Shown one piece after another: positions 4,731 through 62,530 of a stretch of DNA of 64,000 nt (positions are counted from its first letter, which is position 1; every line of letters starts with the position of its first letter). Source of the stretch: Trichobilharzia regenti (taxonomy: Eukaryota; Platyhelminthes; Trematoda; Strigeidida; Schistosomatidae). The notes below the pieces were generated by a model. That model worked only from the letters and a program-made list of their open reading frames with translations. It did no database searches and was not told the origin of the DNA. The translations under genes and the position numbers were made by a program. Location of the stretch: NCBI GenBank assembly GCA_944472135.2, contig CALYDD020000394.1:62001-126000 (forward strand), written 5' to 3'.

Positions 4731-5229
4731 TGCCAGTTTTGCTGTGTTCAAGACCGTTTACACATGCGATTGGATGTCATTGGCCTTGACTTTAGTGTAG
4801 GGGTGAGTGTAAGCATCATTCAAAGATCACAAAACTTTATTCAGTCTTGTAAAAAGTGTTAGTCACGTCTTAGGTAGAGCTGCTTTTTGTTTGACAAAAT
4901 GTGTTTTCCTAAACTTAGAATTTTTGAAGCATATAACTCCAGAAGACAGAGTTGCCCCTCTGCGAGATATATCTGTCGATAAGCTATCCATTGAACAGAC
5001 GTTCGGCTCTAAGTAAAATGTTAACACTGATATCTTCAGATTTTGCTTGCGGAATGCTAATACATCAGTCACTAGACGAAGCGTTTTGGCCGTGTTGTCA
5101 TATGTGTTAGGCCCACTTGAACTAGTAGCATTCAATCTACTATCTACAAGGAAGCTATTTCAAGAGATATGCATAAAAGGACTGCAGTAGGATGAGACAC
5201 CTACTTAAGGGTGGAGGAAGAGAATTAAT

Positions 5230-5652
5230 CATCAGCGATCACCGACACGACACCCTGTTACGCATCCATTGAAGCCATTGTGGCATTATGCGATACTTGA
5301 TTTCCATGTATTTTCCAACGCTTCTGAAGCTGTATACGGAGCAGCTATGTACATCAGAAAAGAGTTGAGTGACAATATATATGTTCATCTCAAGATGGGT
5401 AAATCCAGGTTTCCACTTGTCAAAGTTGCTTCAATTCTAAGACTTGAGCTTACTGCAGCCCTTCTAGATGTTCAGCTGTGTACAACACTGAGTAATGAGT
5501 TGGATTTTCCGACATTGACATGTACTTTTACAATCTCATATCAAGACCAAGATTTATTAATCTTTTTTTTGATTTCATATTCTAACAGTTGTCATTCCAT
5601 CTCAACAAACTTATCTTTTAACGTAACCTGCAATGTAGAAACCAACCAGTAA
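5230..5652 (+). pseudogene. BEL/Pao RNase H domain fragment
   Basis: The frame contains FHVFSNASEAVYGAAMYI, then KMGKSRFPLVKVASILRLEL and TAALLDVQL. BEL/Pao RNase H domains have HVFxDASExAYGA followed by KSRVAPLKxxSIPRLEL, so the match is clear, but the first catalytic Asp of the DAS motif is replaced by Asn. From about residue 85 onward the frame runs into non-homologous AT-rich sequence and stops, so the rest of RNase H and any integrase are lost. Confidence 0.7.
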
Positions 5653-7050: not shown

Positions 7051-7795
7051 TTTGCGATTGCACGGTCGAAGAAAATGAATTCTCAGATTAAAGGCTGTCG
7101 CTGAAGTACATGCTTATCTCCTTATATCGATGCCTCTTCAAGGACTACTGATGAATTAAAAACGTACAGATGAAATCAACAAGCAGTTTACGTTAATAAG
7201 GCATTTAAAATTATTTGTCGCATTCCAAATAACCCTAATTTTGCTTTATGAGCTCGCCTTCAACATACAGCTGAAGCAATAAGAATCGACCTGAAGAAGC
7301 CAAACTTGTGTGTTCAGGAGAAATTTGTACAGCCACTTTCCTTAACTTGGACATCATTACATGAATGCATGAGCCAGACTATTTCCGCCCCCCCCTCCTA
7401 AACCTTTAAAAATTATAAAAATTATAATTGTCCAAATTATTTTATTTTTTCTAAATACTTCATTTTTAATTATCTATTATCCTTGCAAAATTATTTTATT
7501 CATATGACCAATACATCCTTAGTTACAAATTATCACTGTCCGAATCGTTTCATTTTCTTCAACAATATATTACGTAATCAACCTGTGCACAGACTAATTC
7601 TCTAATTACTCTCCAATTTTTCCAAAATAATGCATTGTGCAATCCCCATGTTGTAACCATTTCTACCTTTCAATTGTGTGTGTTAATTTTCTTCAATAAT
7701 TTAGCAATCTCCATTGTAGCATTAAGAAACATAATATTCAGCGAAGAGTCTCTTTTCAACGAATTTATTATCAAGCTGTACAATCGTATACATAT
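7051..7795 (+). mobile_element. Penelope-like element relic flanked by inverted motif
   Basis: A PLE C-terminal relic (7185-7360) is followed by AT-rich 3' sequence. It is bracketed by a motif of about 55 bp in opposite orientations, at 7051-7104 (+, diverged) and 7739-7795 (-). The same motif occurs alone at 44781-44838 (+). Inverted terminal repeats are a normal outcome of Penelope-type insertion, which supports treating the three pieces as one relic. The central coding part is mostly missing. Confidence 0.5.
7185..7360 (+). pseudogene. PLE GIY-YIG protein, C-terminal tail only
   Basis: The frame reads NKAFKIICRIPNNPNF, then ARLQHTAEAIRI, then KPNLCVQEKFVQPLSLTW. This matches the conserved end of the other PLE proteins in the window (KPKLCIQKKFVQPVSLPW at 63449-63946 is the closest). 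One stop interrupts it after NPNFAL. The GIY-YIG core upstream is absent. Confidence 0.6.
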
Positions 7796-8002
7796 GGTTT
7801 TGTAAAGAAATTATATCCGGTAAGGGAATCAGGTCAAAGGTCTGAATACATGAAATAATAATAGTATGAAACGGTCACCGACTCAGTTCCAGAGAAAACC
7901 TTATTCATGAACTTGTAATTCAAAGGTGATCAAGCTTCAGATAGGCTCAAAAATCGTCTCTCTTAATCAGTTAGTAAGACGTTCCCCACAGCTAGACTAC
8001 AT

Positions 8003-8408
8003 ATGAAGTGCACGAGCCGCAAATTGTTCTCTACCTCAGTAAAAGATAAGCTCCCCCGTCTGGCCGCCTCCATGTGCATCTACCAGTTCACCTGCTCTTG
8101 TGGAGCAAGGTACATTGGCCGTAGTCAGAGAACGCTCTCCACACGGATACGACAACATATTCCAGCTTGCTTTTACAAGGGAGAAAGGAAGTGTGTGAGG
8201 CTCTATTCTTCAACACCTGATAGTCTTCTGTCACTTGGTCAACCCTGACCATGATTTCAAGATCATTTATAGAATTCATGCTAACTTCCCGCGTTTTCTT
8301 CGTTACAGACTTCTAAAGACAGCTGAGGCCTTGGCAATTCATGACTTTAAGCCAGACCTTTGTGTACAAAAGAAGTATGTACAATCCTTACTTCTGCCTT
8401 GGTCGTAG
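8003..8408 (+). pseudogene. PLE GIY-YIG endonuclease domain, frameshifted
   Basis: From residue 24 the frame shows CIYQFTCSCGARYIGRSQRT followed by LSTRIRQHIP, the GIY-YIG motif with the paired Cys residues and catalytic-type Arg typical of Penelope endonucleases. A frameshift near 8215 moves the continuation to another frame (NPDHDFKIIYRI, RYRLLKTAEALAI, KPDLCVQKKYVQSLLLPW). Upstream, CTSRKLFSTSVKDKLP is the linker normally found between RT and endonuclease; no RT is attached. Confidence 0.75.
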
Positions 8409-8477
8409 AGGGATAGGCATTTATTTGTTTTGTTTATTTAGTTATTCTATGTACTTTTCCCTTATTATTTCGATTAT

Positions 8478-8506
8478 TTTTATTATTATTATTATCATTA
8501 TTATTA
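8478..8506. repeat. ATT-rich microsatellite
   Basis: Imperfect run of ATT/TTA triplets in the 3' region of the PLE. Similar ATT tracts sit at the same relative place in the palindromic PLE at 13500-13640 and 15110-15240. Confidence 0.7.
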
Positions 8507-8760
8507 ATACGACTCTCATTCTGAATCTTTTCCACTTGACTTACTTGACATTTTAAACCTAAAATTATTAATTTGTATACTTTTTATCTTTATTTTTACA
8601 ATATTAAATTAATTATTGTTAACAAACATTTCACCACTTGATTGTCAAATTCTTGTGTACTGTAATAAAAATGCTTTATGTTAGAGTAGAGCCAGAGATG
8701 AGGATCTAATTGAAAAGTAAATATTTCTTCGCTGCTCAATCTTTCTGTTTTCTAAATGTC

Positions 8761-9840
8761 TAAAAGGGAGTTTTTCTATACTGAAACTAAATTTAAACAA
8801 ATCATCTTTCAACGCCCTCTAAATGCATACTCTGTTGATGTTGTGGAATTTCAATATGTTCAGCACTATTTTAAAACTTTATGCTTGACTCATGACATTT
8901 CTATTTTCTTGTTTTGCTTTCCCTTTCAGACAGTCAATCAGTTGTATACAAATAAATGGAAAATACTAAACATATAAATCTAAAATAAAATTTTACATTT
9001 CATAGTAGAATATTTTGAAAAAATAGAACACAGCGCTTCACTGGATACTTTATATCACATGGAGGTATTTTAACAAAACAAAAAACTGTGCTTTATCTGA
9101 GTGACTCACTCCTCTTGTCTTATCGCTTTTGTTTTCTCAAATTTGTTAGACAGTTAGTCTGTCCTACAATCTGTTTCAGATATCTGATCAATTGAAACTT
9201 TATGTGACCGAAATGAATCCTATGCAACACACCTTTACCTAGAATAATTACCTTTTATAGAAACTGCATTCTCTAGCGCCAGTCTAGGATTTGTTTATAT
9301 AGAAAATTCGCTTATCACATTCAGCTATCGAAAATGTCTGAAAATGAATTTCTACTTATGATTTCTAATGACTCACAAGAACATTTTAGATTTTGGTATA
9401 AATAGTTCTAAAACCAGATCATGTTCACATTTATTCATTTGGTTTACCCAGCTATAAGAATGTTATTTGGTCTTCTGTTCTCCCTGTTAACATTAGTGAT
9501 TATCATTGAAAATGCCACGAGTAAGTAAAGATGTTTTTAGAATTCACTTATTACTGCATACATAAGCAAATTTGCAAGAATTCACCATATGTAGGCTACT
9601 AATTTTGCTAACTGAATAAGTTTGCCATTGACTTTTTCATGGAATCTTTTAGTTATTCTTAAAATTCATATATCGACTATGACTTAAAAAAGAGCCAACG
9701 GACAGGAATTTTTAGAAATGCACTTGTGATTTAAAGTTCAAATGAAATGACTTAAAGTCGTGAATTGTAATACTATTCCAAAACTCTGGAACATTTGTAA
9801 ATAAACTTATTGGTTGATTATGTTCACCCCCGGTATGTTG
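8761..9840. other. No feature recognised
   Basis: AT-rich sequence with only short chance open frames on both strands. I see no transposon signature, RNA gene or convincing exon. Confidence 0.4.
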
Positions 9841-13064: not shown

Positions 13065-13174
13065 TTATTCGTAATAGAAAACATTTATTTCCCGATACGA
13101 ATTTAAAACAAGCAATAAAGGTTAATAAAGCAGGATTTAATGAATTCATCAAATTTCGGTAGAACTCGTCAGCT

Positions 13175-13308
13175 GAATACTCTAGATACACGAATACATA
13201 TACTTTTGAAATTACATTGGGAGATATAAGACTGATAAGTTGAATACTCTACATACACGAATATATATACTTTTGAAATTACATAGGGAGACATAAGGCT
13301 GATAAGTA
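13175..13308 (-). repeat. Tandem 67-bp duplication in PLE 3' UTR
   Basis: Two adjacent copies start GAATACTCTAGATACACG and GAATACTCTACATACACG and end at GATAAGTT/GATAAGTA, a period of about 67 bp. The same pair is mirrored in the right arm at about 15830-15964, so the duplication predates formation of the palindrome. Confidence 0.75.
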
Positions 13309-13671
13309 AACAAACTACATTGAATTAATCATGCAGAGAGACAGGTGCGAATACTTTCCAGGTCATGTTCAAATAAATAAGGGGAGAGAGAGAGTATGAG
13401 AGATCAAAATTAAGATAAATTGCATTACGTTTCAATTACATCACTTAGATAAACAATTAGTCATTAGGGAATATAACTAGAATTGCAAACAGACTAATAT
13501 CAATAGTAATAGTTATAATAACAATAATAATAATAGTGTTGAAGTGAGTTAAGATAATCTTACGGATAAAGCATAGATTTAAATGAATCAAGAATAATAA
13601 TAATGGCAGTAATAATAACAAAAATAATAAGAAGAAGAGGTAGAATAATAACAAGTAGAGAATAAAACGTA

Positions 13672-14376
13672 TTACCATGGTAGATTAAGAGTTACGACCA
13701 TCTCCTTTTGTATACAGAGAGCTGGTTTATAAATTCGAATTGCACAAGCCTCTGCAATTGCAAGCATCTTCTTGTTTCTTTGTTTGCTGACAATGGTAAA
13801 TGACTTGACTGCGTCGATATCATGTCCGTAATCTACAAGATGTTTTGTTATTGAGGATTTTGGCACTTTGAACTCAGCTGTTTTCAACCATTTTGGCAAA
13901 TGCTCCATCATGCGAGTAGACAATCGCCTTTCCGTACGACCTATGTATTTGCTGCCACAAACACACTCAAATTGATATATGCAGTTTGAAGTGTCGAGGA
14001 TTGGCGACTGGTCTTTCCCAGATTGTTGAAGCACTCGCTTGGTGGTGTTAAGGATAACAAGTTTTGCAGCATAATAAGCTCTCTTGATGGCTTTGTCGAG
14101 TCTTCGTTTCACTACTTCTTGTACGTCATCTCCTTTGAACGGTAAATTGATATAAACAGGTTTCTTTGGAACTGTTTGAATCGTTTTGCGGGGGGTAGTT
14201 TCTTTGGAGTATTTATTAATGAACTTCTCAGGATATCCATTCTTAGATAAAATATCCTTCAGAGATTTTATTTCCTGTTCAATAGTACTGTCAGAACTAA
14301 TTTTCCGTGCTCTATTGAACAGTGTTCTGACTAGGTTCTTTTTGTACTGGATTGGGACAAAGCTCTTGAACATGCA
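13672..14376 (-). CDS. PLE GIY-YIG endonuclease region, left palindrome copy
   Basis: The minus-strand frame runs from the palindrome apex to a stop at 13672. About 235 residues are element-encoded: the end of the RT/thumb region (MFKSFVPIQYKKNLVRTLFN, NGYPEKFINKYSKE), a linker (YINLPFKGDD, VKRRLDKAIKRAYYAAKLV), then GIY-YIG (CIYQFECVCGSKYIGRT, LSTRMMEHLP, HLVDYGHDIDAVKSF) ending in CIQKEMVVTLNLPW. The open frame extends to 14577 across the apex, but those first roughly 64 codons are antisense of the other copy. There is no RT catalytic core, so the copy is 5'-truncated. The 3' part is intact and nearly identical to its partner, which suggests a young insertion or arm homogenisation. Confidence 0.8.
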   Translation of the reverse strand, partial: CMFKSFVPIQYKKNLVRTLFNRARKISSDSTIEQEIKSLKDILSKNGYPEKFINKYSKETTPRKTIQTVPKKPVYINLPFKGDDVQEVVKRRLDKAIKRAYYAAKLVILNTTKRVLQQSGKDQSPILDTSNCIYQFECVCGSKYIGRTERRLSTRMMEHLPKWLKTAEFKVPKSSITKHLVDYGHDIDAVKSFTIVSKQRNKKMLAIAEACAIRIYKPALCIQKEMVVTLNLPW

Positions 14377-14386
14377 TTTCAGTACA

Positions 14387-15091
14387 TGCATGTTCAAGAG
14401 CTTTGTCCCAATCCAGTACAAAAAGAACCTAGTCAGAACACTGTTCAATAGAGCACGGAAAATTTGTTCTGACAGTACTATTGAACAGGAAATAAAATCT
14501 CTGAAGGATATTTTATGTAAGAATGGATATCCTGAGAAGTTCATTAATAAATACTCCAAAGAAACTACCCCCCGCAAAACGATTCAAACAGTTCCAAAGA
14601 AACCTGTTTATATCAATTTACCGTTCAAAGGAGATGACGTACAAGAAGTAGTGAAACGAAGACTCGACAAAGCCATCAGGAGAGCTTATTATGCTGCAAA
14701 ACTTGTTATCCTTAACACCACCAAGCGAGTGCTTCAACAATCTGGGAAAGACCAGTCGCCAATCCTCGACACTTCAAACTGCATATATCAATTTGAGTGT
14801 GTTTGTGGCAGCAAATACATAGGTCGTACGGAAAGGCGATTGTCTACTCGCATGATGGAGCATTTGCCAAAATGGTTGAAAACAGCTGAGTTCAAAGTGC
14901 CAAAATCCTCAATAACAAAACATCTTGTAGATTACGGACATGATATCGACGCAGTCAAGTCATTTACCATTGTCAGCAAACAAAGAAACAAGAAGATGCT
15001 TGCAATTGCAGAGGCTTGTGCAATTCGAATTTATAAACCAGCTCTCTGTATACAAAAGGAGATGGTCGTAACTCTTAATCTACCATGGTAA
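14387..15091 (+). CDS. PLE GIY-YIG endonuclease region, right palindrome copy
   Basis: Mirror copy of the left-arm frame, with the same domain order and the same C-terminus (CIQKEMVVTLNLPW, stop at 15091). Differences seen are few (for example DILCKNG for DILSKNG, KAIRRAYY for KAIKRAYY). The open frame reaches back to 14186 only by reading antisense through the left arm. The domain would be a site-specific nuclease nicking target DNA to prime reverse transcription, but without an RT this copy cannot act alone. Confidence 0.8.
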   Translation, partial: CMFKSFVPIQYKKNLVRTLFNRARKICSDSTIEQEIKSLKDILCKNGYPEKFINKYSKETTPRKTIQTVPKKPVYINLPFKGDDVQEVVKRRLDKAIRRAYYAAKLVILNTTKRVLQQSGKDQSPILDTSNCIYQFECVCGSKYIGRTERRLSTRMMEHLPKWLKTAEFKVPKSSITKHLVDYGHDIDAVKSFTIVSKQRNKKMLAIAEACAIRIYKPALCIQKEMVVTLNLPW

Positions 15092-15225
15092 TACGTTTTA
15101 TTCTCTACTTGTTATTATTCTACCTCTTCTTATTATTATTTTTGTTATTATTACTGCCATTATTATTATTCTTGATTCATTTAAATCTATGGTTTATCCG
15201 TAAGATTATCTTAACTCACTTCAAC

Positions 15226-15613
15226 ACTATTATTATTTAGAAAAGAGAAAGATTTAGCGAAGAAATATTTACTTTTCAATTAGATCCTCATCTCTGGCTC
15301 TACTCTAATGTATATAGCATTTTAATTACAATACACAACAATTTACCAATCAAGTGGCGATATGTTTGTTAACAATAATTAGTCGGTGTCAAAATGTCAA
15401 TGGGGTGATAATTAACGAAGACATTTTGACACCGACTAATTATTGTTAACAAACATATCGCCACTTGATTGGTAAATTGTTGTGTATTGTAATTAAAATG
15501 CTATATACATTAGAGTAGAGCCAGAGATGAGGATCTAATTGAAAAGTAAATATTTCTTCGCTCAATCTTTCTCTTTTCTAAATGTCTAAATGGGGATATT
15601 TACTATTATTATT
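15226..15613. mobile_element. Small palindromic PLE insertion nested in the larger one
   Basis: Inverted arms of 161 bp (15238-15398 and 15420-15580) surround a 21-base loop. The right copy continues 21 bases further (15581-15601). The direct repeat ACTATTATTATT flanks it (15226-15237, 15602-15613), in an ATT tract that is uninterrupted in the left arm of the outer palindrome. The arms carry only 3' UTR and match the PLE 3' end at 8615-8760, so this is a different PLE family from the host element and inserted after the host palindrome formed. The arms differ from each other at about one position seen. Confidence 0.85.
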
Positions 15614-16040
15614 ATTGTTATTATAACTATTACTATTGATATTAGTCTGTTTGCAATTCTAGTTATATTCCCTAATGACTAATTGTTTATCTAAGTGATG
15701 TAATTGAAACGTAATGCAATTTATCTTAATTTTGATCTCTCATACTCTCTCTCTCCCCTTATTTATTTGAACATGACCTGGAAAATATTCGCACCTGTCT
15801 CTCTGCATGATTAATTCAATGTAGTTTGTTTACTTATCAGCCTTATGTCTCCCTATGTAATTTCAAAAGTATATATATTCGTGTATGTAGAGTATTCAAC
15901 TTATCAGTCTTATATCTCCCAATGTAATTTCAAAAGTATATGTATTCGTGTATCTAGAGTATTCAGCTGACGAGTTCTACCGAAATTTGATGAATTCATT
16001 AAATCCTGCTTTATTAACCTTTATTGCTTATTGGTAATAG

Positions 16041-16881: not shown

Positions 16882-16978
16882 AATATGTCTTTTCAAGTGT
16901 TGGTTTGTAGGGATTTGATTGATTTCAGGATTTCATCATGAGCTGACATTAGTTAGAGAACCATTGGAAAACCTGGGA

Positions 16979-17024
16979 GTACTGGACAGCTGTTTCGTCC
17001 TAGTTTGGGACTCTTCAGCAGTAC
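16979..17024 (-). ncRNA. Hammerhead ribozyme, type I, intact core
   Basis: Read on the minus strand: stem I GTACTG pairs with CAGTAC (6 bp). The core is CTGAAGA, stem II GTCC/GGAC closes the loop CAAACTA, and GAAA follows. Stem III is the self-complementary ACAGCTGT, and C17 completes a GUC cleavage triplet. All invariant core positions are present. The predicted cleavage lies between 16985 and 16984. The very short, palindromic stem III is like that of Sm-alpha ribozymes and may favour dimeric folding. Confidence 0.85.
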
Positions 17025-17028
17025 GCTG

Positions 17029-17039
17029 GGTTCGAATCC
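17029..17039 (+). promoter_or_regulatory. RNA polymerase III B box at palindrome centre
   Basis: GGTTCGAATCC is a perfect match to the tRNA-gene B box and sits in the loop between the two ribozyme arms. It is correctly oriented for transcription to the right, into the plus-strand ribozyme. No A box is recognisable upstream, because that place is occupied by the inverted copy. Confidence 0.65.
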
Positions 17040-17042
17040 TGC

Positions 17043-17088
17043 GTACTGATGAAGAGTCCCAAACTAGGACGAAACAGCTGTCCAGTAC
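17043..17088 (+). ncRNA. Hammerhead ribozyme, type I, core position C3 mutated
   Basis: Mirror copy of the minus-strand ribozyme with the same stems I, II and III and the same GUC site (cleavage expected between 17082 and 17083). Where the partner reads CTGAAGA, this copy reads ATGAAGA, so C3 is A. C3 normally pairs with G8 in the active core, so activity should be strongly reduced. Confidence 0.65.
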
Positions 17089-17154
17089 TCCCAGGTTTTC
17101 CAATGGTTCTCTAACTAATGTCAGCTCATGATGAAATCCTGAAATATGTCTTTT

Positions 17155-17729
17155 GTTTCATGCAGGACGTTTGGACTCTTTTTAAAACAGCGAGATTATT
17201 GTGTAATATTTATATACATAATGATGACTATGTTATGACTTATTGGTCGCCATTGAGTAAGTTAGAGTTCTCTGTAAAAGTGTTATTCTTATTCAGAACT
17301 TCAAACAATCTATTAAGCATCACAAATAAACATGAAGTGAAATCACACATAAAAGTGATAGCCACCAAAATTTGGAAATATAAAAATGTTATTTGAACGA
17401 ACTTCATAGTTTCATTTTGCAATAAAAGCTTGACCACTTTGTTTGATGTATAAATATTTTTTGTAATGCACAAAAGCTGTTCCTTCATTACGCAATGTGC
17501 AGCTCTAACAGGTGAGTTTACTTATATGAGGCAACTTTTATACAGAAGCTCACAGAATTTCATCTTCTAGAAACGGTTCAACTCACGAATGTAACCTCTG
17601 GATCAGCAAACTATGACATAAACTTTATTCGGACATTGTTGTAACCTATACACAAACGAAAAATACAATATTTTTGCTGTGATAATTTCACCTGTAGTAT
17701 TAATTATTATTTAATCTGTGGATCGCAAG
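17155..17729. other. No gene supported
   Basis: Two short open frames (17118-17396 + and 17240-17488 -) overlap on opposite strands; the first begins inside the ribozyme element and neither resembles a known protein. No other feature seen. Confidence 0.35.
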
Positions 17730-24200: not shown

Positions 24201-24905
24201 AATATGGATTGGTAATCGTTTCATGAATGGAATGCTGCAAGAGTCATTTGATGCTGTGCAATTATAGATGAAGTGAAATATACTTACTTTGATTCCCAAG
24301 GTCCACTGGAGACAGAAGACAGTCATCAATAATAAATGCGTATGTGTAAAATTTCAGAATGCGTTTATTTTGAGAAGATTTACTAATGAATAAATGCGAT
24401 GACTAAAATGAAACATTTGTCTTCGTCAAATCGACAAATAATATTTTAATATTAGTCTTAAATTCATCACGAATTTGTACCAGTATGTAGAGGTGGGTGT
24501 TACAAACCGAATTCAATTTGTTTGTGATTCATTCGTTGATTTTTTGGAATGTTGGCCTTTTCACTCTGTCATTAACCGACATCAGCAGGAGACCAGTCTG
24601 TGTTTAGAAAGCGCTGGGCCTGAGGTCTTCGTAAAAATACCTTTAATCTCAGGAAGTATGTCGCAGCATTTTATGAAACATCTTCATAAACATTACTGAA
24701 AAACTGTCACCTATGTGATATCATTGAAGTAGGGATTTATCAGCCAGCATCGTGGAAGTTAAAATTCTTGGTGGAAGCGCTGTTTTTATTCAGGTTAAAC
24801 ACTCAAAGTATACCATCTAAATAAGGATTCAATGAAACCATAAATAACACTGAGGTCAGAATGGGATTAAAAGTATCAATTTGATAATCTCTACAACAAA
24901 AAAGG
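21231..24905. other. Long AT-rich stretch without recognised genes
   Basis: Open frames up to 94 codons are present but are hydrophobic or low complexity and show no family resemblance. The only item noted is the dispersed repeat at 23490-23550. Confidence 0.4.
23490..23550 (+). repeat. Dispersed repeat of unknown type, copy 2
   Basis: Partner of the block at 12685-12745, in the same orientation. Similarity covers about 60 bp around GATGCTGGTCACTGAGATTT. Confidence 0.45.
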
Positions 24906-24909
24906 ACTG

Positions 24910-25107
24910 CGCATCGGTGGCACAGTAGTTAGGACTCTCGCTGATCATGCACATGGTCTGAGGTTCGATCCCCTGCCGACGCACACCTGTTATCATCTAT
25001 GGTCGGCCTGCAAAATTTGGGCTACTGATAATCATATGCTGAAAATTTCATAGTTGTACCAAAAAATACAGTGTGGAATGAAGCTGTGATAAAAAAAATA
25101 AAAAAAG
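24910..25107 (+). repeat. tRNA-derived SINE, copy 1 (full length)
   Basis: A box TGGCACAGTAGTTAGG (24918-24933) and B box GGTTCGATCCC (24962-24972) are correctly spaced for a tRNA-type polymerase III promoter. The tRNA-like head ends at GCCGACGCACACCTG. The body (ATGGTCGGCCTGCAAAATTT, TGCTGAAAATTTCATA, CAGTGTGGAATG-AAGCTGT) is shared with 28350 and 57090, and an A-rich tail ends the copy. No target-site duplication was obvious. Confidence 0.8.
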
Positions 25108-25109
25108 GT

Positions 25110-28100
25110 AATAACCAGTTTACTTGTTTGGATTTAAGGGATTTCAATTTTCTTTCACACAGTCTTTCTACGTGAGTCTGAATAGAAGTGAAAAAAATAA
25201 GTCTCGAAAAAAAATATTCTTATTTATCGTCTATCCTAGCTGTGTCTTTTAACCGATCACAGCAATGATTTAAGAAATACTTGATGTCGGCTTGTTTCGT
25301 CAACTGTGCCATCTGAGTCACCGCTTATTTGTTCACAGGTAAAAGGAAATATCCGATTAAGTCAAAACTAGATTTCGATTTTGGACAAAAATTGAGGTTT
25401 AGCGGCCAACTAGAATTTCACTAACTTTACACTGTTCACAGGCCTGATGAATTATATATCTTCATGAAATATCGTTTATCACACGTAAACGTAGCACACG
25501 AACACGCAGATAGTTTTATTTGTGGCGTAGTCAGACTCTCCATATTTGGTCTCGTTCAAATATTTTTTTAATAACAGCACCAGAAATTATGCTCCCACTG
25601 TTGTTTTAATTACATGTTCCGGAAACATTCATTTTGTAAGCGGCTGTTTTCGTTTTCCGTACACCCTTCAAAAGTAAACGGGTGGAAAGCATATTTTAAA
25701 TGACTGCATATATGTGGAACCGACCAAAGAAAAATATTTTTGGCCTAAGGTATGAAGATGTTCAACATCTAGTAATATAAAACTAAAGATAAACTAGAAA
25801 ACGTAATCAAGCGCTTGAAATATGTGTCGTGAAAATAAAAACGTATGCATAATAGATGATTACAAGCTAATAACTGCTCTATCTTTGTTTTCTAATAATA
25901 TGTGTCTTAAGTGCAGTCACCAGCCGACGTCAAGTGCTCTTAAGTAACACGAAGCATCTGTTTAGTGCCACCTGGTCTTCCTGTTGTTCACTAGCTGATG
26001 TCAGCTTATGACAACACTTATAGCCAATCAAATCTTAGGAAGCCAACATTCGAAATACAATTTTTATTGGGAATAACTTACTTGACATGCAGTTGTTAAT
26101 GCAATGAAGTCTACATTCACCTACTCTTTGTCACACTATAGAATTCAGTAAGTATATAGCCAACTAACTTGACATCCATATATATATATATGGCAATTCG
26201 TGTGCTCAAATGAATTGAAAAACAAGATCTGACCGAGATTTCAAGTAATTCAACAAGATCTTTTTCAAGTGGAATGCAGCACTCTTGATCCTCAATTCGA
26301 CTTGTGCCCAAGTATGTAAAAAATCTGTCACAATCAGTGAAAAACAATGCTTCATAGATTGATAAGCAAACTAGGAGCTTTAGTCACTAAGAGCAGGTTT
26401 TAACAGTTATTTCAATATGTGTATAAAACATTGCAGAAGCCCTCAATCCAGTCTGTCTCTTATCAAAGCTACCTGGGCATATATTTGAATGCCACTTTAA
26501 ATAACAGATTAAAGGCATTGCATCATGATTTTTGTTTCGAGATCCTAAAACTGGTTTATTCACAGAACGACTGAATATTCTAAGGAGTATACTTGATAAA
26601 CTTCAGTTTCTGATCTTACAGTGAATATTGAAGAAAGTGAGATATACAACTCAGGATTTTGAAATCTGTTATTGTTGGTCGATTATTCATTTCATAAGAA
26701 TTTTACAGATACTAAAATATCAGACTCGACAAAACAGTTTCAGTTCTCAAACTTCATTTCGTCTGGAACTTCCTAAAAATTATTCTGAGTAACTTTGTGA
26801 AAAATCAAGAATAAACAGCTCAAAAGTCTTCAGAGTTTCCAACGAACATAATATCGGTGTCAATCGGAGGAGTTTAAAATGAGATAGTATATCCTATGCA
26901 TTTCTGAAGTCTTAAGGTTAGAAAATATTCTGCTTTATAGTAAACGGTACTGAAGGTAAGTTTCAAGCGTCTTTATTTTTGTAATATTGGTTTTTTATTC
27001 TTCAACGTTATCCATAAAAGTCATTCATGATAATGATTAATCAGTTTGTACACTGCAACCACATATTATCCCTTATCTATTACTTGATGTAGATAAGTAT
27101 TCCAACAAATTTAAAGACATATTTCCGCTTAAACATTTTGTTCACAATATAATAGAAACATGAAGGTTTATTTGAAGAAATTGAGAATAATCAGAAATCA
27201 GTTTCTGATGTATGATTATGCTACGTTACCCTAACTATCCTGACGACTTTATTGGAAGTTATCGTAATCCTGAGAGTATTCATAAAAAACGAAGAACAAA
27301 ACCGAAAATACCTGAGACATTGATCTGACTAAATTGGGAGTTATCTTCATCACGTGTGAAACCGACTTCAATTAAATAAAGGGCCGATGGGCTATAATTC
27401 ACGTGTGGCATGAGTGATCATTGTGGCACAACTGAAATTCAATGAAATGTCACGTTACTTCAGTACATCTATCAACCTGAAATCGTTCTCACGTCTGGTG
27501 TAATGCAGCTTAGCTCAAATACTTCACATTATTTTGAAATCTTGCGCCTATTAATACTTTTGCTTGTAGGTCTTGTCATAAATCAAGCAAACAAGACAAC
27601 TTTCAGTAACTTTTGCAAGCATTTCAGTAAACTGTATGCATAATCCCTTGAGCAACTCATTTTCTGCTGATAATTTTAAGCGGTGTTACATTTTTCGAAT
27701 ACTGCTTCTTAGGAGTCAGGTTATTCTTATTTCAGTGTCATGGGCTACATTGGTAATTTGTGTCAACACTCAAATGATTGAATTCAATTTTTAACTTATT
27801 CAGTTACCAAAGGTACGCTTAAAATGTTCTGAAGTAGTATGTTGCCAGAATTGAATGGATTGATTTTGTTGTAGTCTTCTCTGCGTAAACACTTAATTAT
27901 CGATAGAGTATGATAACCAGTGAAATATTAGGCAAGCTGCTGGGTATTGTGAAGGCAGAAGGAAAGATATTTACGAATCGCTAGTTACCTAGAAATGATG
28001 ATGCGCATTCCAATCACAGTGACCATCCGGTGAATTAAACACTGTCCAATTGCCTTTCGCTTGCTTATCCTGTAAAACGTCGCATTTACTGTGAAACTTT

Positions 28101-28349: not shown

Positions 28350-28535
28350 AGGTGACACAGTGGTTAGGACTCTCGCCGACCATGCACATGGTCCGAGGTT
28401 CGAGCCCACACCGGCGCATACCTGATATCTATGGTCGGCCTGCAAAATTTGGGCTACCGATATCCATGCTGAAAATTCCATACTTGTATCAAAAATACAG
28501 TGTGGAATCAAGCTGTAAATAAAAAATAAAAAAAA
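28350..28535 (+). repeat. tRNA-derived SINE, copy 2 (full length)
   Basis: A box TGACACAGTGGTTAGG (28353-28368), B box GGTTCGAGCCC (28397-28407), the same body as copy 1 (ATGGTCGGCCTGCAAAATTT, CAGTGTGGAAT-CAAGCTGT) and an A-rich tail. It keeps AGTGGTTAGG where copy 1 has AGTAGTTAGG, so it is nearer a tRNA in the A box. Confidence 0.8.
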
Positions 28536-44839: not shown

Positions 44840-46903
44840 CTACGTGTCTTCTGTCTACTAATGTTCGAATGGGAATTATTCATGAACTATGAATTACTCT
44901 TAGCAGTAATACACCGAGCCAATAATAAAAGGAATGAAGGTTAGATAACATCATAAAACTCATCCTATAAATCAGCCGCCATGTTGATATTTGTAGCCAC
45001 ACTTCTTTCATTACCAGAAGACATGTCACTGTACCGACTGAAGCTTGTTAATCTACAGTCTGAAAAGGCGATGTGACATGAAACACTTCCACTAGTCGGT
45101 TGATGTTTAGCTGATGAATATCAGAGGCTCATTTTAATGAGACAGGCTTTCGCTGAAAATACTCGCGCTGAGAAACAGCGAAACAGTAATCATTAAAAAA
45201 AAATGAAATATAAGTTCAATTAAAAAAGTGCGTGAAAAGGCATTCTGGTGAAGTTTAACCACATCATTCACAGCAGCAGGACGATGAGACCTGACTTTGA
45301 ACAGTTAATCAGATTGATGCTTTTGCATTCGGAAGGATTAATTTCTTTTCATTTGACAATTTTACGTCGGTCAGTTGTGTTGGAGATAAAGTGTCGTGGA
45401 CATTAAGTTTTCTGGAGGATAGTCAAGGGATATTTCACACCTGCTGTCGTCAAAGTGAAAGGGTTGTATTGTTTCCTTGTGATTTTATTTGTATACAACC
45501 CTTTTCTGTTGTACTGGGTTGTTGCCACTGCTTCTGAATCTATGGTGTGTATGCGTTGATTGTTTGCATAACTGAGTTTCTATCTTTCGCCTGAGTAGCA
45601 TTATAAAAACAGAATTTCGTTTTCGGATTTCTTCTTTCTTTAAAATTGGGTTTCACTAACGTCGCCGTTGAATTAATAATGAGTACTGTAACAGAATTGC
45701 AGAAATTGAGACCTCACTATTAACAATCTGTCTACACTACTTATCCTTATCTGACCTAAATGCAATCCATCAGACATATTCATATCTTTATTTGGCCTAA
45801 TTCCCTAATGGTTCTCTTCATTTTGGGTTGACTACTATCTGGAATCATTGATGTCGCTGTTGTTCGACTACAGATATCACCATCGAGGTGTTTGAGTTTA
45901 GGAGAGATCACCTGTAGGACTTTGATCAAAACACTGATGAGAGATTGCAGGTGCACATATCTGAATCAGCTCTAAACGTGGGTTCGAAGCTTACTTCCCC
46001 ATTACCATCAACCATCTTACAACAATTTAAAGTGCAGACCAATGGAATACCAGCTAGCATGCTGGCGGCATTACAAACCTAGCCGACAGAATTCAGTCTG
46101 CAGCAAACGGAAGACTAAACTCATGACAATAGTTAATACTTGTTGTCCAACCAAATTATTTTTTCACTTTCATACTCATTTAGTTGACAGGGAGATGAGA
46201 TATTTCAAATTATATCCCTGAAACATCCCTCTTTAAAGGATGAACATAATTTGTTCTCGATCTACATACAAATTCTTTCCCTTATAGAAATCGTTAAACT
46301 TCCAAATGGAAAGGGTAAGCTCCACGCCGAAATAATTTTGGTTTTCTTCTACCGTGAATTGATATAACCTCAAAAAACCCCTTTCACTCACTTAAATGCA
46401 CACTGTTTATTACATGAATTCCATTGGATCAATTTAAACAAAGCACTAGTGATACATAAGACAGTAAAAATTCGGTTCCATTTACAGTATACAAGGACCT
46501 CAGTGTTTTGTGTTTCGTCGAATCGGATTCATGCATATACTGTGATAATTCCTAATTATCCTCCTTCATTATCTACAATAATCTGAAATACACTGGAGTT
46601 GTAGTAAAAGTGTCATTAAAGTTTTATGCAGTTAAGAAGATAACGACGTAATGAATCCGTTTCATCGCGTCATTGCGTTGCTTAAATTAGAAACTTTGAA
46701 TTTGTCAACGACATCGCGATATAGTCAGAACATCTGCACACTGTAATAGTTTATAGTAACATATGTGTCAGCTGAATACACACCACATGGTAAATGATGC
46801 TCTCTTACTATATGCAATATCCAATGAACAACCTGGAATGAAATTATGAAATAGTTCTGGTTTATAATCTGCAAATACGAAATGAAGGAATGAATCTTCA
46901 ACA
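44840..46903. other. No gene recognised; moderately structured non-coding DNA
   Basis: Contains the hairpin at 45458-45504, a TATAAAA at about 45602, and a relatively GC-rich part at 45860-46130 that could be an unnamed repeat. I could not assign any of it to a family. Confidence 0.35.
45458..45504. repeat. 12-bp perfect hairpin with 23-base loop
   Basis: AAAGGGTTGTAT pairs perfectly with ATACAACCCTTT. A TATAAAA lies about 100 bp downstream. The arrangement might be part of an LTR or promoter, but no second copy was found. Confidence 0.45.
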
Positions 46904-46998
46904 ATAATATCAGTAAAAAGTTTGAGCATTTTGGATTAGATCAAATAAAGTATAATTATATTTCAATAGTTCACACACAATGATAACTGTTTTGTTGT

Positions 46999-47042
46999 TG
47001 GTAATATTTCGAGCAAAATTACTACTGCCCGTGTTCACACCA
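46999..47042 (-). ncRNA. Degenerate hammerhead-like motif in PLE terminal repeat
   Basis: Read on the minus strand: TGGT pairs with ACCA (stem I) and GTGAACA stands where CTGANGA is expected. GGGCA/TGCTC forms stem II with one G-T pair and an unpaired C before it, and GAAA is followed by the self-complementary ATAT. The C3-G8 pair of the normal core would here be G3-C8. PLE terminal repeats of many animals carry type I hammerheads, so an ancestral ribozyme is plausible, but the extra base and weak stem I make this uncertain. Confidence 0.3.
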
Positions 47043-47113
47043 CTGTTGGAATTGTTTTATTCTCACATTTATGATTTGTACTCATATATATAGCTCATCA
47101 ATTTTTTGCTCAC

Positions 47114-47632
47114 TCATGTTTTTCTTGTATTCAGAATTATATTCCAAGTTGTTGGTAGTTGTACTGAGTCACCCTTGTTACATGTATCCAGTTTGACCTT
47201 AATGAATACAGATTCTGTTATAAGTCTCTCTTTCCATTTGGTCATGTTAGTTTTCAGAATACACACACTGCTCCAATTGATATTGTGGTTTTTGTCCCAT
47301 GCATGTGCAGCTATCGATGAATTTTTTTCAAGATTCTTGAAGGCTTGTGTTCCTGTTGGTTGACGTTTGGTTAGGCGTTTATGTTCGTTCACTCGTATTT
47401 TAAGTGATCTGGCCGTCTGCCCCATATATTTAGTCTGACAGTCAGCACAAGACATTTTATAAATCAAATTGTTTTTATCCATCATTTTGATAGGATCTTT
47501 CAGCGAATTTATTTTATTTTTGATTAGATTCGTCGGTTTAAATGTTGTTCGAATGCCGATATTCTTGAGGTTTCTTTGAATCGCCTCTGATGTACCATTT
47601 TTATATGGTATTGTGACTGTTTTTTTTTGCAT
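47114..47632 (-). pseudogene. PLE GIY-YIG endonuclease domain
   Basis: A frame of 172 codons, though its upstream RT part is frameshifted. It begins in the linker (TVTIPYKNGTSEAIQRNLKN, IGIRTTFKPTNLI). The endonuclease follows from about residue 57: YKMSCADCQTKYMGQTARSL, then KIRVNEHKR, and a His-rich segment (IAAHAWDKNHNINW). A tail after KWKERLITESVFI ends the protein. Paired Cys and His positions fit the zinc-binding form of PLE GIY-YIG domains. The typical YIG is YMG here. Confidence 0.75.
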
Positions 47633-47837
47633 TCTTCCATCTCGTTATTCTCCGATCTTACCCTCCTTTTTCCCTTTTTTATGTTATCTTTTCAAAATTT
47701 TTTTCGGTAGTTTTGTGAAGTAACATTTCGAATAGGACCTTTATCTCTTCACGCAGGTCGTCTGGTGTTGTTGTTAGTCTACGTATTCTATCTGCAAGAC
47801 CTTGTATTAATCCTCGATTAACCGCGAGTGGATGAGC

Positions 47838-48035
47838 TCAATGATTGTCAAGGAATCTTCCAGAGTGTGTGGTTTTTCTATATATCGTCGTTTTTATGCT
47901 ACCATCTGTCGTTCCTTGTATTTTGTAATCTAACATAAGCAGTTCCCCAATTTCATTCTCTATTTCCATAGTGAATTTTATTGAGTCAGCATACCTATAA
48001 TAATGATGAACTAAATATATATGGGTACAAATCAT
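47838..48035 (-). pseudogene. PLE reverse transcriptase C-terminal fragment
   Basis: Sixty-five codons: YYRYADSIKFTMEIENEIGE, then LLMLDYKIQG, then IKTTIYRKTTHSGRFLD. The IYRKxTHSGxxLD block is the conserved end of the PLE RT. The next 200 bases towards 47632 continue the thumb in broken frames (LAVNRGLIQGLADRIRRL). The first residues run into the terminal repeat, so the RT catalytic core is missing. Confidence 0.65.
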
Positions 48036-48063
48036 AAATGTGTGAATAAAACAATTCCATAAG

Positions 48064-48107
48064 TGGTATGAACACGGGCAGTAGAAATTTTGCTCGAAAT
48101 ATTACCA
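48064..48107 (+). ncRNA. Degenerate hammerhead-like motif, opposite terminal repeat
   Basis: Same fold as at 46999-47042 but in the other inverted repeat: TGGT/ACCA, ATGAACA, GGGCA/TGCTC, GAAA, ATAT. Position 3 is A here, so the putative 3-8 pair is lost. Confidence 0.25.
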
Positions 48108-48175
48108 ATAACAAAACAGTTATCATTGTGTGTAAACTATTGAAATATAATTCAACTTTCTTTGAATCTTCAGCA

Positions 48176-56330: not shown

Positions 56331-56425
56331 AAAGTGCGTACTTGCAATTAGTCACAAACTATGACGAAACAGCTCTCCAACACTGCCTGGTTTTTAGTAG
56401 TTCTGTATCTGATAGCACTCTTTTG
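56330..56425 (+). mobile_element. Decayed single copy of the hammerhead element
   Basis: The segment reads TGCGTACT ... CAAACTATGACGAAACAGCT, then CACTGCCTGGTTTTTAGTAG and TTCTGTATCTGATAGCACTC. It aligns along its length with the right arm of the palindromic element (CAAACTAGGACGAAACAGCT; ACTCCCAGGTTTTCCAATGG; TTCTCTAACTAATGTCAGCTC). It is not palindromic, and the tRNA-like head is not recognisable. Confidence 0.6.
56338..56382 (+). ncRNA. Inactive hammerhead ribozyme relic
   Basis: Stem II is GTCA/TGAC around the same loop CAAACTA. Relative to the intact copy (GTCC/GGAC) the loop-closing pair has changed on both sides and still pairs. GAAAC follows, but stem III is ACAGCTCT, with a mismatch, and the 5' core has lost CTGANGA altogether, so it cannot be active. 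Confidence 0.5.
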
Positions 56426-56429
56426 TCAG

Positions 56430-57085
56430 ACTTGAAAAATATCAGATCCTTGCAAATCAACTCTTGCAAAGCAGTTTTTCATATTCGAGTATTTTAGCCG
56501 CATTTAGATCATGTCATCAACACTTTATCATCATGAAAATAATTGGGTAATTATTTTGTGGTTAATGATGTTTTATTCAATATTCCGAGATGAATAATAT
56601 AATGGAGAGAAGAGAGCGACTTCGGAAGAAATGAATAAAAGGTTTGATGTTCTTCTGTATCAACTTTGTCCTCAAATAGCAACTTACCAGTAAGAATTTA
56701 GATATCAGATGACATTCAGTCGAATTTCCTCAATTTTTTGTCGTAAATAATTCAGCTACTCAAATTGAGTTAGTATCATGATTGTGCGTATTATGCATTG
56801 TGTTACAACATCTGGTATAAAGTTAAAATCATCTCGGAAAGTAGCAGTCAGGACAGTGAAAAAAACTAAACAAGTAGCTCAACGAAGTTAACTTCTGCAT
56901 CCACTTTGAATAGTTTTGACGGAGTAGCACAGAAAACCATCGATAGGTTTACTTTACTGAGATTCTTCTTCGCTCCCTGGAGAGAATATCACGAGGATAT
57001 TTAGATTTCAGTTGTGAAATTGCTGAAAGAACTTTCTTAATCCGTTCACACTCATGATTGATAGAGTTATATATATATATATATA
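56430..57085. other. No feature recognised
   Basis: AT-rich, ending in a TA microsatellite (about 57066-57087) next to the SINE. Confidence 0.35.
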
Positions 57086-57087
57086 TT

Positions 57088-57248
57088 GATTACAGCTTGA
57101 TTCCATACCGTACTTTTTGTGCAGGTATGGAATTTTCAGCATATGACATCGGTAGCCTGAATTTTGCAGGCCGACCATAGATATTAGGTGTGCATCGGCA
57201 TAAGATCGAACCCTGGACCATGTGGATGGTCTGCGAGAGTCTTAGAAT
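57088..57248 (-). repeat. tRNA-derived SINE, copy 3 (5'-truncated)
   Basis: Reverse complement of the 24910/28350 family: B-box-like GGTTCGATCTT, then GCACACCTAATATCTATGGT, GGCCTGCAAAATT, TGCTGAAAATTCCATACCTG and ATGGAATCAAGCTGTAATC. The A box is lost: homology starts only at GACTCTCGCAGACC. A TA microsatellite sits at its 3' end in place of the A-rich tail. Confidence 0.75.
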
Positions 57249-59225: not shown

Positions 59226-59905
59226 AAAATTAATTTGTGTATCTTATTTCAGTATTTCAAAGTACTGAACAACTATTACTGATGACAGACTGAAGGCAAC
59301 AAACTTGAACACAGCAAGAACAACAATTGTACCAGGATAATATGAGCTCATCTTTCATTATTTTGGCGATTCTTCTCAACTGGTTACAACCTGAACGTTA
59401 AAAATTATAAATTACATTAAAGATATGAACACACTTTTCCAAGATCATAAGGAGTAATTCGTTGGTAGGAAGTAAAAGTAACATTAGTCCGGAATGATTT
59501 AACTGATTAGGAGTTACAAACACTGACTATTTATAGAATAATTAGACAATTAGGCTTGGAAACAAAAAGCAGGGCTTCGTATATATATGTGTGTATAGAA
59601 ACAAGGTTTAGTTAGAAAGAGCATAACAAAAAGGTAGATTACGTAACTAAAGGAAACGTCTTATCTAATAGCCAATAGAAAAAAGGACAGAAAAGAAACG
59701 AGGTAGGGTGAGTCATATTTAGATGAGAGAGTATAGTTTTCTATGCATGAAAAAAGTGACTCATGAAAATTGTAATTTTTTCGTTATCACCAGGGCAGTG
59801 CAAGATTCACCACCGTCTCTTTCTGCGTACATAGGTTTGGTTTAAGTCGTTTGATGGTAATTGCTTCAGCAAAGCGTAGCAAGCTAGGTTTCTTTTCATT
59901 GTTCA

Positions 59906-60109
59906 TTGTGTCTTTCAGGCTGTAGACTGATAATTTGCCATCAGATGGAGACTGGTCATGCTGTAGACACCCTGAAGTCGTTCAAAATAATCAACAAGCG
60001 AAAGAAACCTAGCTTGCTACGCTTTGCTGAAGCAATTACCATCAAACGACTTAAACCAAACCTATGTACTCAGAAAGAGACGGTGGTGAATCTTGCACTG
60101 CCCTGGTGA
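59906..60109 (+). pseudogene. PLE GIY-YIG protein C-terminus
   Basis: The element-encoded part starts about HQMETGHAVDTLKSFKII and continues FAEAITIKRLKPNLCTQKET to VVNLALPW. It is the end of the GIY-YIG domain; the catalytic motif itself lies upstream of the truncation point. The mirror copy at 59895-59800 (-) encodes the last 30 or so residues only. Confidence 0.7.
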
Positions 60110-60118
60110 TAACAAGGT

Positions 60119-60135
60119 TATATATATATATATAT
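60119..60135. repeat. TA microsatellite in PLE 3' UTR
   Basis: About eight TA units just after the stop of the right-arm PLE copy. The left arm lacks the run, so it expanded after the palindrome formed. Confidence 0.8.
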
Positions 60136-60639
60136 ACAACTTTCATAAGTCACCTTTTTCATGTTCAGAAAACTCTACTCTCTCATCTAAACATGGCTCA
60201 CCCTACCTCGTTTCTTTTCTGTCCTTTTTTCTATTGGCTATTAGATAAGACGTTTCCTTTAGTTACGTAATCTACCTTTTTGTTATGCTCTTTCTAACTA
60301 AACCTTGTTTCTATACACACATATATATACGAAGCCCTGCTTTTTGTTTCCAAGCCTAATTGTCTAATTATTCTATAAATAGTCAGTGTTTGTAACTCCT
60401 AATCAGTTAAATCATTCCGGACTAATGTTACTTTTACTTCCTACCAACGAATTACTCCTTATGATCTTGGAAAAGTGTGTTCATATCTTTAATGTAATTT
60501 ATAATTTTTAACGTTCAGGTTGTAACCAGTTGAGAAGAATCGCCAAAATAATGAAAGATGAGCTCATATTATCCTGGTACAATTGTTGTTCTTGCTGTGT
60601 TCAAGATTATTATGGGGAAGACGTTCTGAGGGCAATAAG

Positions 60640-61100: not shown

Positions 61101-61171
61101 GATATGGTTACCAAGGGAGTGAGAGATTGACCACACTCTCTTTCTGTATGCATAAGTTTGGTCTGTGACGT

Positions 61172-61525
61172 TTGATTGCAATTGCTTCAGCAAATCATAG
61201 TAGATTCGCTGTCCTTTGTATGTTTAGACCGGACAAAGACTCTGGAATTGTTATAATGAGTAAAAATGATGATGTACATATGATGTTGGCAATTCGAAAC
61301 GACTCCGGAAAATTTCAATTGGACAAAACCAAGAAGGATACAACAACGTCATTCGAAAACAAGGTAAATAAATTCTTCAAAGAACTACTCGTCAAGAAAC
61401 TGATTGACAACGAAACGTACAATGAACTCAAATCAAAGGGTGAACGACTCCCATTTATGTACGGTCTACCAAAAATCCATAAGGCAAATGTGCCCTTATT
61501 ATCCATATGTCCATATTATCAATGA
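61172..61525 (+). pseudogene. PLE reverse transcriptase, N-terminal part
   Basis: Within 117 codons, RPDKDSGIVIMSKNDDVHMM opens the PLE RT (the conserved KxDKGxxVVxM region) and RLPFMYGLPKIHKANVPL is the conserved YGLPKIHK block. The first 18 or so residues are antisense of the inverted 3' fragment. A frameshift after VPLL moves the rest (MINTPRHKLARWLADSLEPI) to another frame. Confidence 0.7.
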
Positions 61526-61765
61526 TAAACACACCACGCCACAAACTAGCCCGATGGCTAGCTGATTCATTGGAGCCAATTCGACAAAAAATTTCAAAAC
61601 TAGAATGACACCTTCCAATTTTCTAAAGAAGTCGATCACGTTGACATATCAGATAAACTGATGGTGTCATACGACGTGACTGCCTTATTTACAAATGTAC
61701 CAGTGATGGAAACAATAGATATCATTTGTAAACTAAAACATCTATTGCCATTACCAAAGTCATAG

Positions 61766-62143
61766 ATGAAACGGCTACTAATTCTTTGCACAAAAGACAT
61801 CCAATTTAGATTCAATAACCAAGTCTACAGACAAACTGACGAGGTTGCCATGGGTTCATCCCAAAGACCCATTCTAGCAGACATCTTCATGGGCTATCTC
61901 GAACAGACACGACTGAGTGACGGTATCAATGGAACAACATACTACCGTCGATACATCGATGATACTTTTGTTGTTTGTAATGACATGAGTCATGCATCCG
62001 TATTAATTGACCGCCTAAATGAGGTCCACCCAAACAATAAATTCATCATGAAATACAAACACAACGATGGGTTCAATTTCCTGGACCTAAATGTAAGAAG
62101 AAGAAAGGATGGAACGGTCGAAAAATCCATCTACAGGAAATAA
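61766..62143 (+). pseudogene. PLE reverse transcriptase palm domain
   Basis: 125 codons: FNNQVYRQTDEVAMGSSQRP with ILADIFMGYLEQ is the PLE palm block. YRRYIDDTFVV contains the catalytic Y-I-D-D pair, intact here. NDGFNFLDLNVRRRKDGT and IYRK end the RT core. The preceding motif (SYDVTALFTNVP, first catalytic Asp) lies in another frame at about 61665-61700. It is the only PLE palm with a complete YxDD in the window. Confidence 0.75.
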
Positions 62144-62530
62144 ACTTGGACCGGACAATACCTTCATTACAACAGCTTCTGCCCTATGAGCTATAGGAGG
62201 GGATTAGTAAGATTACTGTACGACAGGGTCAGAAAGTTATGTTCGCCTAACAAGGTAGAAGAATAATTAAGCTTTGTCGAAAAATGCCTTAAGGAAAACG
62301 GGTATCCAAAAGGATTTATCCTAAAGTACAGCAAAGAAAGAGATGAGAAAGAGAAGTCTCCAACAGTTGAAAAGAAGAAAGTGTTTATAAGCCTCCCATA
62401 CAAAGGAGAAACAGATTAAAAGAGGATAAAGGGAGCAATAAAGAGATACTTCTTTGCAGCCAATCTGGTGACACTATACAGCACTACGTGCTCTATAAGG
62501 CAATCAAAACTAGATAAGTACCCTGATGGT

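Follow-up and report, generated by a model that had tools for sequence, protein, structure and literature searches.

What moves a short element that carries a hammerhead ribozyme? The question is raised by positions 16882–17154 of a 64-kb stretch of the Trichobilharzia regenti genome (the whole stretch is called the window below), where two hammerhead units are arranged in opposite orientation, head to head, with their 3′ ends outward. We infer that a short non-autonomous hammerhead element, resembling Sm-alpha of Schistosoma mansoni, was retrotransposed here in a single event. Because its head-to-head layout, the length of its flanking repeat and its one-sided tail match four Penelope-like element (PLE) insertions within the same 64 kb, the enzyme that moved it was probably that of a PLE.

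Two hammerhead units form an inverted dimer

The units were delimited by Rfam and inverted-repeat searches. Without its tail the left unit occupies 16922–17033, with its sense on the − strand, and the right unit, which has no tail, occupies 17034–17142 on the + strand. The palindrome arms (16922–17033 and 17034–17145) are each 112 nt long, are separated by 0 nt and are 97% complementary (109/112). The insert as a whole measures 249 bp and the unit at most about 146 nt, possibly after 5′ truncation. This leaves no room for an open reading frame (ORF) encoding a reverse transcriptase (RT) and endonuclease, and none was present in the ORF list.

Hammerheads were detected with the Rfam model RF00163 (gathering score 34). 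Both units gave type I matches above the gathering score, the left at 17024–16979 on the − strand (54.1 bits) and the right at 17043–17088 on the + strand (50.8 bits), in agreement with the sequence-only reading of this DNA, which had placed two type I hammerheads on opposite strands of one palindrome. In the Rfam alignment the left core is intact (CUGAAGA), whereas the right core reads AUGAAGA, with C3 replaced by A. Another change at this position, C3G, is reported to abolish hammerhead cleavage (PMC11167929). Because one of the arm mismatches alters C3 of the right unit, the right ribozyme is probably inactive and only the left one would be expected to be active. Both arms read through the ribozyme cleavage site, which suggests that the template was either uncleaved there or re-closed.

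The three arm mismatches lie at 4, 7 and 16 nt from the palindrome centre, so that 3/3 fall within 16 of 112 nt; in the PLE palindrome at 59298–60611, 9/11 fall within 62 of 477 nt. Such central clustering perhaps reflects the use of two templates, processing at the centre or, at 59298–60611, the end of true homology.

Pattern matching identified an RNA polymerase III B-box match, GGTTCGAATCC, at 17029–17039 on the + strand, one of 3 such matches in the window, where 0.04 would be expected. The match is near-palindromic, with an inner TTCGAA that is self-complementary, and it straddles the junction, where the 5′ edges of the two units meet and the arms end. A B box had been proposed in the loop of the palindrome: the motif is present, but there is no loop and the match spans the junction instead. 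A whole B box within any single unit is not shown, and ARAGORN found no tRNA genes in the window. Of the A and B boxes that make up the tRNA-like head of Sm-alpha and Sj-alpha, only the B box is represented here. The idea that the junction marks a reverse-transcription stop at a modified T-loop base was dropped, as evidence for it was lacking.

A target duplication and a one-sided tail flank the dimer

A direct-repeat search identified a perfect 12-bp repeat (12/12), AATATGTCTTTT, at both outer ends of the locus, at 16882–16893 and 17143–17154 on the + strand. One copy directly abuts the right unit, and the other abuts a 3′ extension of the left unit of 28 nt (16894–16921, − strand; 22/28 A or C), or 31 nt if an ambiguous AAT is assigned to the target. 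When random anchor pairs were scored by one-sided search, the repeat score of 12 was reached by 1/600 pairs (lengths 9–15; palindromes not avoided) and by 0/6000 pairs when known left arm ends were avoided (lengths 10, 12 and 13). The two features noted earlier from the letters, a 12-bp direct repeat and one copy about 28 nt longer at its 3′ end, were both recovered.

Two further copies of the element are present in the window. Copy 56 (56335–56466, + strand; blastn 56350–56466, 5′ edge by eye) is a diverged single copy with a decayed hammerhead, and copy 25 (25915–26052, + strand; blastn 25949–26011, both edges by eye) is a more diverged single copy; over the matched parts they are 71% and 75% identical to the hammerhead element, respectively, by blastn. 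Both have the tail and stop close to where the left unit stops. The left extension belongs to the element, as both copies show related sequence at the corresponding place. The similarity of the tail to copy 56 was matched by 0/5000 shuffles and 6/5000 random window stretches, and that to copy 25 by 41/5000 shuffles and 21/5000 random window stretches. From the coordinates, the two unit ends fall about 60 nt and 91 nt downstream of the hammerhead cut.

Neighbouring PLE insertions share the layout

The window contains 22 inverted pairs. Once pairs over 3 kb apart, pairs formed within a single element and one pair with its arms in two PLE insertions are removed, five palindromes remain, namely the hammerhead element and four PLEs. 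PLE tail lengths were refined by eye. The first PLE dimer, at 13065–16040, has the repeat TTATTSGTAATAG at 13065–13077 and 16028–16040 (12/13), a left tail of about 32–34 nt, and long ORFs and the hammerhead core CTGACGAG..CGAAA on both arms. The product of 14387–15088 is 91% identical to a T. regenti RT-domain protein; the long ORF gave no Pfam match. The tail region of this PLE (13078–13160) overlaps the ORF start, reading FKFVSGNKCF where a full-length PLE from another source (P0050) reads FKFVSGKNCF.

The second, a PLE 3′-end dimer at 15226–15613, is nested in the right arm of the first, and its duplicated 12 bp are host PLE sequence. Its repeat, ACTATTATTATT at 15226–15237 and 15602–15613 (12/12), is a low-complexity ATT repeat, its right tail is about 21 nt long, and it matches the 3′ end of a PLE at 7198–8768. 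The third, at 46891–48175, has the repeat TGAATCTTCARCA at 46891–46903 and 48163–48175 (12/13), a left tail of about 37–40 nt and an ORF at 47114–47644 (−) that is one of two in the window to match GIY-YIG below the Pfam cutoff (17.1 and, for the other, 17.9 bits, against 22.6). The fourth, at 59290–60638, has repeats at 59290–59302 and 60626–60638 (11/13), a right tail of about 20 nt and PLE C-terminal matches on both arms. The window PLEs also match one another by tblastn.

The repeat scores of these four are 10 (13065), 12 (15226), 10 (46891) and 7 (59290); random anchors reached a score of 10 in 2/600 cases and a score of 7 in 27/600. The architecture of the hammerhead locus had been likened to that of the palindromes at 13065, 15226 and 59290. 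The first two do share it, with the reservation that the 15226 repeat is of low complexity. At 59290 the layout stands and the repeat, taken alone, is weak. The palindrome at 46891–48175, of the same layout, is additional to those named previously.

By eye, microhomology of 2–3 nt between element and target is present at the short 3′ end in 4/5 palindromes; the predicted primer terminus is ATT-3′ for the hammerhead element and for the PLE at 15226. Further PLE coding pieces lie at 61111–62524, where a head-to-head arrangement is indicated solely by the directions in which the coding pieces run (apparent junction near 61225), and at 63449–63985. The PLEs at 7198–8768 and 63449–63985 are not resolved palindromes.

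The element is unlikely to be a fragment of a PLE

The strongest rival explanation is that the locus is an ordinary 5′-truncated PLE insertion, the hammerhead and 3′ region being the pseudo-long terminal repeat (pLTR) and ORF start of an unsampled autonomous family. We consider this unlikely, even though the 15226–15613 palindrome is a PLE 3′-end fragment of just this kind. The left unit is open from an ATG to the end of the tail (MSAHDEILKSIKSLQTNT) and the tail of copy 56 encodes a similar peptide, LKNIRSLQINS, as a truncated ORF start would. The 3′ ends were compared with 19 PLE N-termini, with 150 shuffles each. Copy 56 gave a borderline score of 34, reached by 6/150 shuffles, whereas the left unit and copy 25 did no better than shuffles (102/150 and 133/150). 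In the same test the 13065 PLE (PLE13) scored 56, reached by 0/150 shuffles, and PLE59, probably a protein start, gave 4/150. The test is a weak one, as PLE15 (84/150), PLE47 (41/150) and PLE8 (80/150) also fail it and only 19 N-termini were included. When a Schistosoma spindalis PLE N-terminus served as query in a region search, 4 proteins were retrieved, counting the query itself.

Two further features are at odds with a truncated PLE. One is the B-box match at the 5′ edge. The other is the RF00163 match itself, at 54 bits, which sets the element apart from the window PLE ribozymes: at E values up to 10, Rfam gave 16 matches in the window, among which the only hammerheads were the two known ones, and no hammerhead was reported in the window PLEs. 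Most of the other Rfam matches were microRNA families on the PLE palindrome arms, below their gathering scores. A regular expression with a stem II filter recovered the left hammerhead and one probable chance match, and missed both the right unit and the PLE hammerhead; the hammerhead core in each arm of the PLE at 13065 was located with a second pattern. Given the shuffle results for the left unit, the contrast in RF00163 and the want of convincing 3′ similarity to PLEs described below, the earlier suggestion that the element is itself a non-autonomous PLE derivative was not borne out, with the caveat that the protein-start test is weak.

A model for insertion by a PLE enzyme

If a PLE enzyme moved the element, insertion may have proceeded as follows; the choice of enzyme and the sequence of events are modelled on the neighbouring PLEs and on published PLE work, and the layout, duplication and tail are those observed. 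The PLE protein would bind an RNA made up of a B-box-like 5′ part, the hammerhead and the 3′ region, in which the ribozyme site was uncut or had been sealed again. The endonuclease would make a staggered break in AT-rich DNA, cutting the two strands at positions separated by 12 bp. Both free 3′ ends would then prime reverse transcription at internal sites about 60 and about 91 nt past the hammerhead cut, giving a tail of 28–31 nt on one side only. The two cDNAs would meet at the self-complementary TTCGAA and be joined head to head, and fill-in would generate the 12-bp duplication.

Purified PLE protein is reported to cleave and extend both target strands, with reverse transcription starting internally at two points that agree with the genomic tail (PMC11167929). 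In that work an AC-rich stem loop holds the main start, at ORF positions +111 to +118, and the hammerhead cut lies at +26 (PMC11167929), which by subtraction places the start 85–92 nt downstream of the cut. The long start here lies 91 nt downstream, in the stretch with 22/28 A or C; its agreement with the published 85–92 nt is an observation, not a test. Penelope copies of the rotifer Adineta are described as having inverted pLTRs, mostly head to head, and palindromes at the junction; the duplications, when there are any, measure 8–10 bp, one of the inverted pLTRs bears a 31-bp tail, and an unrelated gene was moved in trans (PMC3846280).

Priming from both strands is the likelier of the two published routes, because in each of the five palindromes the short end is set back by the length of a tail, something that fixed starts account for but snap-back does not. 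The other route would have the PLE enzyme move the element but the dimer arise by self-priming of a single cDNA, or on an antisense template. It is somewhat less likely again than a truncated PLE, and its odds overlap those of the best explanation, from which it departs in route only. Self-priming, probably on an antisense template, is how palindromes at inverted junctions were read by the authors of the Adineta study (PMC3846280), and the palindrome centre here is the self-complementary TTCGAA. Self-priming would, however, be expected to leave ends set by chance, yet in 5/5 palindromes the short end stops about 20–40 nt before the long one, an offset that two fixed start sites would produce (PMC11167929). 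The clustering of the three arm differences at the centre also speaks against it.

Routes that do not involve a PLE

Rearrangement at the DNA level, by fold-back repair or a replication template switch acting on an older single copy, or insertion of a terminal-inverted-repeat transposon, is improbable. It would accommodate the position of 3/3 arm mismatches within 16 nt of the centre, and the weak similarity past the left tail to the flank of copy 25 would fit an older, longer left copy. It would also make a coincidence of a 12-bp repeat flush with both outer ends (0/6000), the outer ends differ by an element-derived tail, unlike those of a terminal inverted repeat, and the four neighbours that share the layout are retroelements.

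RT fragments of other kinds and tRNA-like short interspersed nuclear elements (SINEs) with A-rich or simple-repeat tails are present in the window, and the machinery of long interspersed nuclear elements (LINEs) was therefore probably available. Nevertheless, LINE-driven SINE insertion with twin priming is the least credible of the routes, as twin priming yields two non-overlapping pieces of one RNA and not two copies of one 3′ region, the hammerhead element has no A tail, none of the three tRNA-like SINE copies shows an adjacent inverted partner, and the one-sided tail matches PLEs.

These SINEs form one family of single copies (24916–25106, 28351–28534 and 57086–57244), two of which have an exact B-box match; by eye, none has a clear target duplication. 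An ordinary-looking SINE and the hammerhead element thus coexist in the window with different insertion products. Sequences near one SINE copy (24734–24853) and near the hammerhead locus (17237–17358) are 65% alike (E 8e-8), perhaps through an old repeat, and a Pao/BEL-type retrotransposon peptidase fragment (PF05380) lies at 5209–5652.

Observations that weigh against PLE mobilization

Several observations run counter to the proposal that a PLE enzyme moved the element. A comparison of its 3′ end with those of PLEs had been suggested in the sequence-only reading; no 3′ sequence convincingly shared with the five window PLE ends was found, the scores being reached by 7, 230, 73, 266 and 259 of 300 shuffles (best for PLE13, 7/300). 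How a PLE protein would recognize the hammerhead RNA is therefore unexplained. Moreover, ribozyme mutants are reported to leave PLE insertion unaffected (PMC11167929), and the hammerhead itself is therefore no evidence for the use of a PLE. No inverted partner or clear target duplication was found for copies 56 and 25 (duplications by eye), and the combination of inverted dimer and duplication is clear at one locus only.

The last of these points concerns the presumed target DNA beyond the left tail. Its similarity to the 3′ flank of copy 25 was unusually high, being matched by 2/1500 random stretches over 30 nt, and less so over 60 nt (25) and 120 nt (140), and that to the 3′ flank of copy 56 was weak, being matched by 374/1500, 26 and 132, respectively. 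The flanks of copies 25 and 56 show no likeness to each other (891/1500 at 35 nt), and a blastn search of the left flank against the window returned neither copy among its matches. The flank similarity could mean that the element extends past the tail, in which case the 12-bp repeat would require another explanation. Taken as a whole, the claim of movement by PLE enzymes is well supported at this locus by layout, repeat and tail, and its generality rests on one clear insertion.

Significance and comparison with known systems

The broader proposal is that Sm-alpha-type hammerhead elements are SINEs of Penelope, which would borrow the PLE protein, start at two internal sites (∼60 and ∼91 nt) and insert as head-to-head dimers. 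We give this an even chance of being correct. If true, it would explain the spread of tens of thousands of animal hammerheads without a LINE. Its marks can be counted in any schistosome genome, as inverted dimers, 12–13-bp duplications and two 3′ ends 28–31 nt apart. A PLE-like process may also act on RNAs lacking any evident common 3′ sequence, which would agree with the trans event reported in the rotifer (PMC3846280).

For animal retrozymes with type I hammerheads, PLEs have been proposed as the movers, on the basis of shared ribozyme type, tandem arrangement and co-occurrence (PMC7229834, PMC7761336). To that proposal the present locus adds a concrete insertion scar, of PLE type, as physical evidence for a PLE step. 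No report of head-to-head hammerhead SINEs or retrozymes with PLE tails was recognized in open-licence literature listings. Like the animal non-LTR retrozymes, the element is non-coding, has a type I hammerhead, shares its genome with PLEs and is flanked by a target duplication of more than 4 bp (PMC7229834, PMC7761336). Unlike them, it shows no head-to-tail tandem copies: such junctions, which the earlier reading had thought worth seeking, were found at 0/3 loci in the window. Head-to-head dimers or tails are not mentioned for animal retrozymes in the available parts of these two accounts (PMC7229834, PMC7761336).

The likeness to Sm-alpha and Sj-alpha lies in the type I hammerhead (RF00163), the schistosome host and a B-box motif beside the ribozyme (PMC2770079, PMC8490949). 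Sm-alpha of S. mansoni is tRNA-like, in that 2,342 of 2,368 tRNA-Gln-TTG predictions are SINEs similar to it (PMC2770079). Sm-alpha and Sj-alpha monomers are given as 332–335 bp, often in tandem (PMC2770079, PMC8490949), against a unit of at most about 146 nt here, where no tandem array was found at the hammerhead locus and the product is instead an inverted dimer with a target duplication and a one-sided tail. A tight pattern for the Sm-alpha-like core found 0 stretches in viral contigs, and a looser one found 15 stretches in genome contigs and 58 in viral contigs. In a blastn comparison of the element with the pattern-matched loci, the best 20 matches span 26–32 nt of the ribozyme core only and are uninformative on relationship. 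Three of the viral contigs (L044, L060 and L071) have four hammerhead-core pattern matches each.

From the PLEs themselves the element differs in that an RT/endonuclease ORF would not fit into its 249-bp insert, no PLE protein start was detected in its tail by the weak N-terminus comparison, and RF00163 is matched by the hammerhead element and not by the window PLE ribozymes. With Pen of Adineta vaga (PMC3846280) and Poseidon of Anolis (PMC11167929), as these are described, it has in common the head-to-head copies and target duplication, a tail of about 30 nt that is one-sided where present, a palindrome at the junction and a hammerhead upstream of the 3′ end.
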